Made by a program: the position numbers and the translations under genes | NCBI RefSeq assembly: GCF_902833145.1 | Contig: NZ_CADFEN010000004.1 | Span: 186,001-250,000, forward strand | Source: Burkholderia sp. BCC0506 | Lineage (GTDB): Bacteria; Pseudomonadota; Gammaproteobacteria; Burkholderiales; Burkholderiaceae | Length of the DNA: 64,000 bases | Reading direction: 5' to 3' | The notes under the pieces: generated by a model | Databases searched by the model: none | Seen by the model: the letters and a program-made list of their open reading frames with translations, nothing else | What the model was told of the DNA's origin: nothing | In this document: positions 32,025-35,430 of the stretch, one piece after another | Layout: every line of letters begins with the position of its first letter | Numbering within the stretch: position 1 is the stretch's first letter

Positions 32025-32343
32025 CCGGCCTTTCGCGGTTTGCGTGCCGCACGCTGTCCGTCGCGATGCGCAACAGGCTGACGATTGGCCGCAGACCGCG
32101 ACGACGGCGGTGACCGTGGCGCGCACACCGATGCGTGGTGGATATTCGGATTGACGAACCGCGCACTTTGTTCGAAACGAACGCCGTCGCGGCTCCACCA
32201 ACGCGGGACCTTCCGGCATACGGGTTTCGATTCGTATGTTCCAACCGCGGCGTGGGCTATAAATGGTTGGGTGTACCGGTGCTTGTCGGGCGCCTGCGCG
32301 TCTCGCGCACGGTGGCGTCGCGGCTGCCCGGGGGAGGTGCACC

Positions 32344-33942
32344 GTGGTTTGCCAGACGCTTGCTCGCGCCGTGCTTCGCACTGCGTTGATCGGGGGCGTG
32401 TTCGCCGGAATCCTGCCGCCGCCCGCCGCCGTTGCGGGCACCCTCGCGCCGCCCGCCGCACCGCCCGCGACGAAGGCACGGCCGCCCGCCGTGCCGTACG
32501 CGATGCCGGTCGATTTCCCGGCGATCGTCGAGCGCTACGGCCCGGCGGTCGTGACCATCCTGGCTGCCGCACCCGATCCGCAAACCGGCGGCCCGGCCTT
32601 TGCCATCCTCGATCCCGACGATCCGCTCGCCGCGTTTTTCCGGCACGGCGCACCGCGGCCCGCGCAAGGGCCGCAGGCGCCGGCGCCCGATACGGCGCCG
32701 CGCACGGTATCCGGCAGCGGCTCGGGCTTCATCGTCAGCGCCGACGGGCTGATCCTCACGTCCGCCCATGTGGTCGACGAGGCGACCGACGTAACGGTGC
32801 GGCTCACCGACCGCCGCGAATTCAAGGCGACGGTGCTGGCCGTCGATCCGCAAAGCGATGTCGCCGTGCTGCACGTCGACGCGACGAAGCTGCCGTTCGT
32901 GCGCGTCGGCGATTCGTCGAAAGTCCGCGCGGGCGAACCGGTGATGACGATCGGCGCGCCGGACGGATCGGGCAACACGGTCACGGCCGGCATCGTCAGC
33001 GCGACGGCGCGCCGGCTGCCGGACGGCAATGCGTTTCCGTTCTTCGAGACCGACATCGCACCGAACCCGGACAACTCGGGCGGCCCCGTGTTCAATCGCG
33101 CGGGCGACGTGATCGGCATCGCGGTGCAGGTCTATACGGGCGCCGACCGCTACGCGAGCATGACGTTTGCCATCCCGATCGCATTCGCGGCCAAGGTGCG
33201 CGCCCAGTTGCGCGCGCAACAGCAGGCACAGATGCAGGCGCAGCAGCCTCCGGCACCCGCGCCGGCCGCGCCGTCGGGCAATGCGTTGGGCGTCGACGTG
33301 CAGGACGTCGGCGTCGGTCTGGCCGCGGCGTTCGGGCTGCCGCGCCCGGCGGGCGCGCTCGTCAACGGCGTCGCCCCCGGCTCGCCGGCCGCCGCGGCCG
33401 GCTTGAAACCCGGCGACGTGATCGTGAAGGTGGGCGACAAGGCCATCGGCCGCTCGGCCGAACTGAACGACGTTGCCGCCGCGCTGCCGCCCGGCGGGAA
33501 GGCGCGGCTGCGCGTGATCCGCAATCGCGCGCCGGTGACGCTGACGATCACCGGCGCCGGCGCCGGCGCCGACGACGCGGACGGCGGCGCGGCCGCGACG
33601 GTCGGCATGGCCGCGCCGAAAGCGGGCGCGCGGCCGGGGCCGGGCACCGGCGACAAAGGCGATGCAGCTGATGGCGGCGACCGCCTCGGGCTGACGATGC
33701 ACGCGCTGAGCGACGACGAGCGCCGTTCGACGGGGCTCGCGGTCGGGATGATGGTGGACGCGGTGCACGGCCCGGCCGCGCGCGCGGGTATCCAGCCGGG
33801 CGACGTCGTGCTCGAGCTCAACGACACGCTGCTCGAGACGCCGGACGACGTACCGACGCTCGAAGCGAGCGGCGGCAGCGTGATCGCCGTGCTGATCCAG
33901 CGCAACAACGCGCGGAAGTTCGTGTCGGTGCGCACGCGTTAG
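32344..33942 (+). CDS. HtrA/DegP-like serine protease with altered GNSGG motif
   Basis: 532 residues from the GTG at 32344, which has GGGGGAGG upstream and yields a signal peptide (about 1-32); reading from 32263 would add 27 non-signal residues. The trypsin-like domain has His142 (LTSAHVV), Asp172 (QSDVAVL) and Ser245, but the oxyanion-hole motif is NPDNSGGPV, with Asp243 where HtrA proteases have Gly. Two PDZ domains follow (about 285-395 and 445-530), separated by an alanine/glycine-rich linker. It would act in the periplasm on misfolded proteins. The single G-to-A change may reduce activity or make it chaperone-like. Confidence 0.85.
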   Translation: MVCQTLARAVLRTALIGGVFAGILPPPAAVAGTLAPPAAPPATKARPPAVPYAMPVDFPAIVERYGPAVVTILAAAPDPQTGGPAFAILDPDDPLAAFFRHGAPRPAQGPQAPAPDTAPRTVSGSGSGFIVSADGLILTSAHVVDEATDVTVRLTDRREFKATVLAVDPQSDVAVLHVDATKLPFVRVGDSSKVRAGEPVMTIGAPDGSGNTVTAGIVSATARRLPDGNAFPFFETDIAPNPDNSGGPVFNRAGDVIGIAVQVYTGADRYASMTFAIPIAFAAKVRAQLRAQQQAQMQAQQPPAPAPAAPSGNALGVDVQDVGVGLAAAFGLPRPAGALVNGVAPGSPAAAAGLKPGDVIVKVGDKAIGRSAELNDVAAALPPGGKARLRVIRNRAPVTLTITGAGAGADDADGGAAATVGMAAPKAGARPGPGTGDKGDAADGGDRLGLTMHALSDDERRSTGLAVGMMVDAVHGPAARAGIQPGDVVLELNDTLLETPDDVPTLEASGGSVIAVLIQRNNARKFVSVRTR

Positions 33943-34023
33943 GATGTTGACGCGGCTGTCGTCGTCCGCCTACCATCGTCCGGTATCGCGGGCGGTCCGC
34001 CACGCATTCAGGAGCCATTCGGC

Positions 34024-34077
34024 ATGAAAACGGCTTGCTTCGTCGTAGTAGTAATCCACAGGCGCAGGGTCCGGTAG
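34024..34077 (+). CDS. Leader peptide with valine run
   Basis: An 18-codon reading frame encoding MKTACFVVVVIHRRRVR and a TAG stop. AGGAG lies 9 bases before the ATG. It is followed within 24 bp by an intrinsic terminator and then by the MFS gene start. The stretch of four valines and one isoleucine, then four arginines, is what a transcription-attenuation leader looks like. A second hairpin (34067-34074 with 34088-34096) overlaps its stop codon and could alternate with the terminator. Expression is not shown by sequence; the arrangement is the evidence. Confidence 0.6.
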   Translation: MKTACFVVVVIHRRRVR

Positions 34078-34100
34078 CGGCACCGCGCCGGCACCCATGC

Positions 34101-34129
34101 GCCCCCGACCCGTTCGGGGGCTTTTTTTT
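34101..34129 (+). terminator. Intrinsic terminator/attenuator before the MFS gene
   Basis: GCCCCCGA (34101-34108) pairs with TCGGGGGC (34114-34121), loop CCCGT, followed directly by eight T residues (34122-34129). It lies between the leader peptide and the TTG start of the truncated MFS gene, so it can act as an attenuator; it also ends any read-through from the HtrA gene. Confidence 0.85.
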
Positions 34130-34173
34130 GTGTTGCGCATGGCCGTGCGGCCGGTGCGCGGGAGGGCATCTCC

Positions 34174-34764
34174 TTGCAATCGAACCTGTCGAGCGCTTCC
34201 GGAGCGGCGTCGCCGCGACACGCGACGCTGATCCTGCTGTGTGCGTTGTCGGTGCTGCCGCTGAGCCTGTTCCTGCCGTCGCTGCCGGCGATCGCGCGCG
34301 ACCTGCACGCCGACTATGCGCTCGTCGCGCTGTCGCTCGGCGGATATGCGGCGGTGGCCGCGCGGGTCGCGCGCCGCTACGCGCTGGCCACGACGATCCT
34401 GTGGGGGCGAGTCGTGGCGTGCGCGGGCCCGCTGGTCGGCCTCGCGCTCGTGTTCGGCGGCGCGACGCACGCGCTCGCCTGGTTCGGCCCGTGCGTGCTG
34501 GTGGGCATCGGCAACGGGCTGAGTAACCCCGGCGCCCATGCGGGCGCGGTGTCGGTGCGCCCGGAGCTGGCGGGCAGCGCATCCGGGCTGGCGGGTGCGA
34601 TGACGATCGGCGGCGGCGCCGCGCTGTCGTCGCTGACGGGCGCGTGGCTGACCGCCGGCAACGCGGGCTACCTGACGCTCGCGATGATGCTGCTATCGGC
34701 GGCGATCGCGCTGGCCGCCGCCGTGTGCGTGCGGGCGTTCGACGAGCAGGACGCCGGGCGGTGA
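34174..34764 (+). pseudogene. Bcr/CflA-type MFS drug transporter with internal deletion
   Basis: 196 residues in one open frame, against about 400 for the family. The TTG start has GGGAGG upstream. Residues 1-58 are a normal N-terminus up to the second helix (LSVLPLSLFLPSLPAIARDL, ALVALSLGGYAAVAA); the next residues (RVARRYALATTILWG) belong to the C-terminal half, and helices about 8-12 follow. The middle of the transporter, including the usual GPLSDRxGRR loop, is missing. An in-frame deletion of roughly 600 bp explains this. The product is unlikely to transport. Confidence 0.7.
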
Positions 34765-34890
34765 GCGCGGGTGCGCCCCGGTACCGGCGCGCGGCCGAAT
34801 GACGGACAATCCGCCGCATGCGGGAAGACGGCGCACGATTCGCGCGCCGTGCGTCCCGACGATCGCGACAGCCGACTGGACGAGGATGCG

Positions 34891-35430
34891 ATGAGCGACT
34901 TTTCTGATTTCCAGCGGGACATTGCCGATGCCGCGAGGGCGACCTTCAGGGCGCTGCGGGCGTTGCACCCGGACGAGCATTTCTACGCGTTCGCGTTGTA
35001 CACCGACAGCGGCGCGATGACGGTGGTGCCGGCGGCCAATTCGGTCGAAGGGCTGCGCCGGGCCCGCGCGCGGCTGGCGGTTGCGGACGACGATCCGCGG
35101 GCCGTGTGGAGCGTGTCCGAGTGGGCGTACGCGGCGGCCGAGGCTTCGCCGTTCAACGCGATCTGCGGCAGGCTGGCGGACGAACTGCTGAGCCCGCAGT
35201 TCGTCCGGTCGCGATTCCCCGAATTTTCCCGGCAACTGCATGCCGACATGGTCGCGGCGTTGCGGCTGCTCGATCGCGACGGCGTGTTCGGCACCGGCGA
35301 CGACCGCGCGGCCATCACGCTGTTCGTGTCGATCGGCGACGACGACGCAGCCGAGGCGCTGGAGAACGCATCGGCGAAAGCGCTGAACCCGCCGGCCGTC
35401 GCCGACGCCTTCCTGCGCCGCTACGGCTGA
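34891..35430 (+). CDS. DUF4303 domain protein
   Basis: 179 residues from the ATG at 34891 (GAGGA nearby); an upstream frame to 34771 does not look coding. The sequence pattern FRALRALHPDEHFYAFALYTD and the later WSVSEWAYAAAE plus DRDGVFGTGDDRAAITLFVS fits DUF4303, a SMI1/KNR4-like cytosolic family often found as polymorphic-toxin immunity proteins or in scattered operons. No toxin gene is adjacent, so a role cannot be stated. Confidence 0.75.
   Translation: MSDFSDFQRDIADAARATFRALRALHPDEHFYAFALYTDSGAMTVVPAANSVEGLRRARARLAVADDDPRAVWSVSEWAYAAAEASPFNAICGRLADELLSPQFVRSRFPEFSRQLHADMVAALRLLDRDGVFGTGDDRAAITLFVSIGDDDAAEALENASAKALNPPAVADAFLRRYG

Follow-up and report, generated by a model that had tools for sequence, protein, structure and literature searches.

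A conserved valine-rich leader and putative transcription attenuator upstream of a Bcr/CflA-like transporter gene in Burkholderia

Introduction

Attenuators of the trp, ilv and leu type, found at amino-acid operons, combine a leader peptide with control codons and alternative RNA structures. What might a similar arrangement do in front of a transporter gene annotated as efflux? The question is raised by a leader unit located between an HtrA-like protease gene and an MFS gene in a Burkholderia genome, within a window of 64 kb (the whole stretch of DNA analysed here). We favour, at a probability of about 0.68, the interpretation that this unit is a leader-peptide transcription attenuator with valine and isoleucine control codons, that it governs the Bcr/CflA-like MFS transporter, and that its signal is likely a shortage of charged Val-tRNA.

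Results

Organization of the leader locus

The components of the locus are listed in Table 1. The sigma-70-like site is the only one found (shuffle mean 0.0), and relatives aligned with it conserve its TTGAC and second hexamer. The leader peptide, MKTACFVVVVIHRRRVR, has 17 residues with four valines followed by isoleucine, and the sequence of 34010–34077 bears out the frame, the AGGAG site and the valine run described in the initial annotation. The hairpin that it placed over the stop codon is also present; this hairpin (P1) is one long helix that starts in codon 13, with the final codons and the stop inside it, and the 34052–34107 segment folds at -32.1 kcal/mol (z -4.3), with 0 of 200 shuffled sequences as low. 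The terminator with eight Ts was likewise recovered, and is the sole terminator-like site in 33400–35000, for which the shuffle mean is 0.5. The outer three base pairs of P1 and of the terminator use the same bases, 34101–34103, in the terminator 5' arm, an overlap that the initial annotation did not mention. A search of the window with Rfam at gathering cut-offs gave no match, RF02502 included, and blastn against phages gave none.

Table 1. Features of the leader locus and its neighbouring genes, in window coordinates.
Feature	Position	Strand	Basis or remark
HtrA-like protease gene	32263–33942	same strand as leader unit	NCBIfam degP_htrA_DO; leader unit lies 3' of it
Sigma-70-like promoter (putative) of leader transcript, TTGACG-N18-TACCAT	33947–33976	+	motif scan; relatives' alignment
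AGGAG ribosome-binding site of leader ORF	34010–34014	+	kept in most relatives
Leader ORF, 17 codons plus TAG	34024–34077	+	ATG at 34024, TAG at 34075–34077; frame conserved
Codon 9, GTA	34048–34050	+	A-site codon where the model switches, 8 codons ahead of last sense codon
P1 hairpin over last codons and stop, proposed antiterminator	34061–34103	+	folding; beats synonymous recodings
Intrinsic terminator, 8-bp stem (34101–34121) and T8 (34122–34129)	34101–34129	+	terminator scan; relatives
Bcr/CflA-like MFS transporter gene remnant	34174–34764	+	TTG start, 196 aa; about 207 codons missing in frame
Gene for DUF4303 protein of unknown function	34891–35430		next gene downstream

An MFS reading frame does follow directly, as the initial annotation stated, but the gene is internally deleted. 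Orthologues of the MFS protein have 403 aa, and the window copy is without about 207 internal codons; its first 61 residues align by eye with the start of the orthologue and its last 135 correspond to residues 269–403 at 93% identity. The attenuator looks intact while the MFS gene carries this in-frame deletion, and because of the deletion the attenuator in the window genome probably governs a dead or altered transporter. The best-scoring models are those of Bcr/CflA efflux MFS proteins (TIGR00710), yet an intact orthologue reaches 187.6 bits against a curated cut-off of 200.9; the window remnant, at 28.5 bits, is under the same cut-off, and an orthologue at locus L118 passes it with 220.5 bits.

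Conservation of the leader and its reading frame

We searched for relatives of the leader with blastn, using 33940–34175 as the query, which gave matches in 38 of the 65 genus genomes. A covariance model (R1), built from an alignment (A1) of 31 leader copies, also matched 38 of the 65, of which 37 were kept after one weak match had been read. Among 398 genomes of the family R1 matched 41, made up of 36 from the genus, one (G398) from another genus, and four weak matches; in the genus of G398, which we took as Paraburkholderia, five of 144 genomes matched and four of these were true. Weak R1 matches in genera g11 and g12, and in G036 and G454, were dropped because reading the sequences revealed no comparable ORF. 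The leader set thus comprises 41 distinct copies, 37 from the genus and four from the second genus.

The initial annotation had named loss of the peptide frame in relatives as evidence that would overturn it; we examined this, and the frame is open in all 41 copies, with lengths of 51 nt (34 copies), 54 nt (3), 60 nt (2) and 75 nt (2), two start codons having been set by hand. Among the 34 copies with a 51-nt frame, codons 2–11 have a diversity of 0.29, 0.18 and 0.37 at codon positions 1, 2 and 3 respectively, a coding signature; we infer that the leader ORF is translated. Third positions in codons 12–16 of the same copies are nearly fixed (diversity 0.011), as expected of RNA under constraint. 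The locus has, upstream of the gene, a short translatable ORF with its own ribosome-binding site, as supported by the conserved frame and coding signature, and an intrinsic terminator separates this ORF from the gene. Both hairpin and terminator occur in the 41 copies, two of which are visibly decayed. Since the frame is open throughout and both RNA elements are present, the leader unit is more than a product of chance. In L028 the conserved unit lies amid different flanking DNA. The L067 and L068 peptides have no valine run (NRIARPVARRRKVR). A macrolide R-x-R stalling motif was considered for the peptides and dropped, the third-from-last residue being Met in seven, Lys in three and Gly in one of the 41.

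The leader travels with the transporter gene

The leader directly adjoins the MFS gene in 37 of the 41 copies. Of the 65 genomes of the genus, leader and MFS match (E up to 1e-60) occur together in 36, the MFS match alone in five, the leader alone in one and neither in 23 (Fisher p 9e-12, with the relatedness of the genomes ignored). Judged by their coordinates, leader and MFS match are neighbours in 33 of the 37 genomes with a leader. In the other four, leader and MFS match are about 1.4 kb (G061) or about 9 kb (G034) apart, lie on different contigs (G048), or the MFS match is absent (G052). DNA 3' of the terminator differs from that of relatives at the G061 and G034 loci (L088 and L089). At another locus (L069:2171-2294) a group II intron-like sequence directly follows the terminator T-run, with a weak match to Rfam group-II-D1D4-3 (30.3 vs 32 bits), and the MFS match in that genome is at the start of another contig. 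The four genomes of the second genus that have the leader are also the four that encode an MFS protein of 69–70% identity; a further genome, G435, has an MFS protein at 56% identity and no such leader.

The leader was not found in five genomes of the genus with an MFS match. In one of these, G033, a single deletion (locus L086) that starts directly behind the first promoter hexamer has removed the leader along with the 5' portion of the MFS gene. Another, G017, has an MFS protein of only 58% identity, which may be a paralogue.

P1 is constrained at the RNA level

The last five codons of each of the 41 leader ORFs were randomly recoded 200 times with the peptide kept. In 30 copies no more than two of the 200 synonymous recodings equalled native P1, and in nine more 4–25 did. 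The two least distinct copies are L030 (121/200), from G034 with its MFS gene about 9 kb away, and L065 (33/200), from G052 with no MFS match; P1 is thus weakest in units uncoupled from the MFS gene. L025, from G061 with its MFS gene about 1.4 kb away, keeps a strong P1 (1/200) and is an exception that may be recent. The stretch from P1 to the terminator is nearly invariant in the Burkholderia alignment A1, and pair counts revealed no countable covariation there, since there is hardly any sequence variation. Copies from the second genus keep the outer P1 helix and have other inner pairs.

A modelled switch at a rare valine codon

To relate ribosome position to RNA structure, we computed the equilibrium folding of each leader, placing an assumed ribosome footprint at each codon in turn and barring its bases from pairing. 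The full terminator forms with a mean probability of 0.31 while the P site is 12 to 9 codons short of the final sense codon, and of 0.98 when it is eight codons or fewer away; with no ribosome the mean is 0.43, and 26 of the 41 copies are under 0.5. Defining a clear switch as a terminator probability under 0.5 and then over 0.9, we find one in 32 of the 41 copies, for which the alternative structure is exclusive with the terminator and is set in the model by ribosome position. Nine copies are without it: L008, L016, L066 and L080 are intermediate, L066 being irregular, and in L019, L030, L065, L067 and L068 the terminator is favoured at all ribosome positions, with L019, L067 and L068 lacking the switch though their MFS gene is in place. 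Varying the 3' edge of the footprint from +12 to +17 moves the switch by no more than one codon either way.

Of the 41 copies, 34 have GTA as the A-site codon at the switch and 37 have a codon ending in A, the three other A-ending codons encoding proline or leucine; overall, valine or leucine is at the stall position in 39 copies and proline in two. GTA is a rare valine codon, accounting for 3 of 57 valine codons in the neighbouring HtrA-like ORF, 21 of 473 in 19 MFS orthologues, and 22 of 789 in long window ORFs, the last a biased choice picked for high GC3. The initial annotation's proposal of a ribosome-mediated attenuation layout is supported by the conserved frame, hairpin, terminator and promoter-like site, and gains further support from the shared bases, the modelled valine-codon switch and the homology to leaders of acetolactate synthase genes described below.

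Related leaders precede acetolactate synthase genes

Searching named genomes with six aligned MFS proteins yielded 48 loci, many of them alphaproteobacterial. A related leader is present upstream of the MFS gene at 37 of these, 35 found by R1 (E up to 1; weakest accepted 0.29) and two more by RF02502, with peptides that include MNTAFIIVVGSWRVVR, VTFKFNIVVRNRRVER and MNTASVMVVVGRRMGRMV. RF02502 (Atu_C8) is filed in Rfam as 'Gene; sRNA', a Rhizobiales sRNA, and 11 of 20 of the 48 loci scanned with Rfam pass its cut-off. Across 398 genomes of the phylum it is over the cut-off at 22 places in 18 genomes; 18 of these places precede acetolactate synthase and four this MFS gene. The acetolactate synthase loci (L144–L147, L149–L154, L156–L161, L174 and L176) have a short ORF rich in valine, isoleucine and leucine, with peptides such as MKIATALIVVGKRMGRMV and MKTALILVGRRVGKAV; three of the synthases were checked by NCBIfam and the others by reading the translation, one by motif alone. 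In G593, G736 and G755 one RF02502 copy precedes acetolactate synthase and one precedes the MFS gene. The survey of proteobacterial attenuators by Vitreschak et al. from 2004 may already include the acetolactate synthase leader.

The window unit is below the RF02502 gathering cut-off, and its near relatives reach 26–29 against 50 bits. When RF02502 was run on ten loci of the overlap type, four matched at 26–29 bits (E 0.05–0.4), at the place of the leader and on its strand. In the alphaproteobacterial leaders of the RF02502 type, hairpin and terminator have no bases in common, and the same folding model gives almost no switch in 32 alphaproteobacterial leaders (the RF02502 type plus L133, L128, L129, L130 and L142), with at best a partial change in, for example, L133, L129, L130, L127 and L119. 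Homology of the two leader types in sequence is therefore supported by the available comparisons and a common mechanism is not; with no shared bases and almost no switch, we do not carry the detailed mechanism over to the RF02502-type leaders.

The unit in the window precedes an MFS gene rather than a gene of branched-chain amino acid synthesis, and upstream of the acetolactate synthase gene of its own genome we saw no similar leader by eye or in a short-ORF scan. The initial annotation had contrasted an efflux gene with an amino-acid operon; the MFS gene is indeed the one that follows, but the contrast is softened because related leaders serve both kinds of gene. At two loci a TPP riboswitch lies directly upstream of the orthologous MFS gene and replaces the valine leader (L118:1300-1416 and L120:1323-1440, from Mesorhizobium tianshanense and Rhizobium metallidurans). 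Leader types cluster in a tree of 35 MFS proteins, where the two orthologues with a TPP riboswitch are nested within the leader-bearing set.

Discussion

A model for ribosome-dependent attenuation

We propose that transcription begins near 33983. If the ribosome moved through the 17-codon ORF without pausing, it would cover the P1 5' arm (34061–34069) and block P1, such that the full 8-bp terminator would form and transcription would stop after the T-run. A ribosome held at the isoleucine/valine block, its A site awaiting the rare GTA, would leave the P1 5' arm free; P1 would then form and take the three outer bases of the terminator stem, and the terminator, shortened and moved off the T-run, would be weakened enough for transcription to continue into the transporter gene. 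The natural signal would be a shortage of charged Val-tRNA, as under branched-chain amino acid limitation. This is the most likely signal in our analysis, and is favoured because homologous leaders precede acetolactate synthase in Rhizobiales; sensing of branched-chain amino acids is favoured by the RF02502 kinship, the paired copies and the MFS tree. Our evidence, all of it computational, consists of conservation, the shared bases, the position of the switch in the folding model and the kinship with RF02502; we infer that the switch is functional in vivo and that it answers to valine.

Alternative interpretations

Could ribosome-targeting antibiotics be the signal instead, slowing or arresting the leader ribosome so that P1 forms and an exporter is made, as with BmrB? 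The downstream protein does score best with Bcr/CflA efflux models, though below the curated cut-off, any slowing at the valine block leads to read-through in the folding model, and the IVVV block resembles the IFVI and IAVV stalling motifs of Erm leaders. BmrB also provides a precedent both for drug sensing and for rare codons playing a part (PMC4191407). Similar leaders nonetheless precede acetolactate synthase (18 of the 22 RF02502 places), the replacement of the leader by a TPP riboswitch at L118 and L120 points to metabolic control, and L067 and L068 are without the valine run; we therefore regard control by drugs as unlikely, and as less likely than attenuation by branched-chain amino acids. 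The initial annotation had left the signal between ribosome-targeting drugs and charged tRNA, and of these the ilv-type kinship favours charged tRNA (Val/Ile). It is less probable still that the leader reports translation speed in general, with rare A-ending codons before P1 slowing the ribosome and the amino acid being irrelevant. This would accommodate the A-ending switch codons of 37 copies, three of them proline or leucine, and the lean of untranslated RNA to read-through (mean terminator probability 0.43, 26 of 41 under 0.5), but almost every copy encodes valine, isoleucine or leucine in the block, for which the ilv kinship offers a specific reason.

The terminated leader RNA might act mainly in trans as an sRNA, as the name Atu_C8 and the filing of RF02502 suggest, with read-through incidental. 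Near-invariance of the P1-terminator stretch would be compatible with such a role, and peTrpL and rnTrpL are attenuator products reported to be active in trans (PMC7298713). The co-occurrence of leader unit and MFS gene, and the weakest P1 in units uncoupled from that gene (G034 and G052), argue against this and make it a very improbable main function. That the unit is merely the terminator of the upstream HtrA-like gene, beside a meaningless short frame, would fit its position 3' of that gene on the same strand; given its own promoter-like site, conserved frame and RNA constraint over 41 copies, and relatives such as L028 with different flanking DNA, we attach next to no probability to this explanation.

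Implications for the transporter and for RF02502

If attenuation by charged Val-tRNA is correct, a transporter family annotated for drug efflux is tied to amino-acid starvation, which provides a lead to its substrate. RF02502, filed as an orphan sRNA, would be the terminated product of a leader-peptide attenuator that precedes both acetolactate synthase and this transporter, and its annotation could be partly rewritten. The switch at a rare GTA codon is a sharp, testable prediction. A tentative extension, which we consider doubtful, is that the transporter is part of branched-chain amino acid and thiamine-diphosphate metabolism rather than a general drug pump. Acetolactate synthase needs TPP, and on this reading an ilv-type attenuator and a TPP riboswitch would both induce the transporter when the enzyme fails; the transporter might bring in a metabolite by which the pathway recovers, or remove a natural inhibitor from the cell.

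Comparison with known systems

A search of the open-licence PMC literature found no description of the window leader, which subscription papers or supplements may hold; it may also be among the 82 short 5'UTRs of the B. cenocepacia start-site and sRNA papers (PMC4603805, PMC5688073).

Like the trp, ilv and leu attenuators, the unit has a leader peptide with a run of control codons and alternative antiterminating and terminating structures, although its gene encodes a transporter annotated as efflux. A separate 1:2 protector hairpin was not seen in the window leader, and its untranslated RNA is for that reason predicted to read through rather than to terminate. RF02502 Atu_C8 shares with it a short ORF ending in VV-G-R-R-M-G-R or similar, a long hairpin over the stop and a terminator, and also precedes this MFS family in alphaproteobacteria. 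Its terminator is set off from the hairpin by a linker, whereas those of the window unit share three base pairs.

Two leaders linked to transporters also bear comparison. PA5471.1, upstream of armZ in Pseudomonas aeruginosa, is described as a proposed case of leader-peptide attenuation linked to efflux (MexXY), which acts via the anti-repressor ArmZ and answers ribosome drugs (PMC12057347). The leader of bmrCD in Bacillus subtilis, BmrB, has 53 codons and precedes an ABC transporter, with a drug as the signal and a contribution of rare codons (PMC4191407). Abolishing its translation lowered expression there, and our model predicts the opposite for the window leader; yet with ribosome-mediated transcription attenuation before a transporter and the involvement of rare codons, BmrB is the nearest experimental parallel (PMC4191407).
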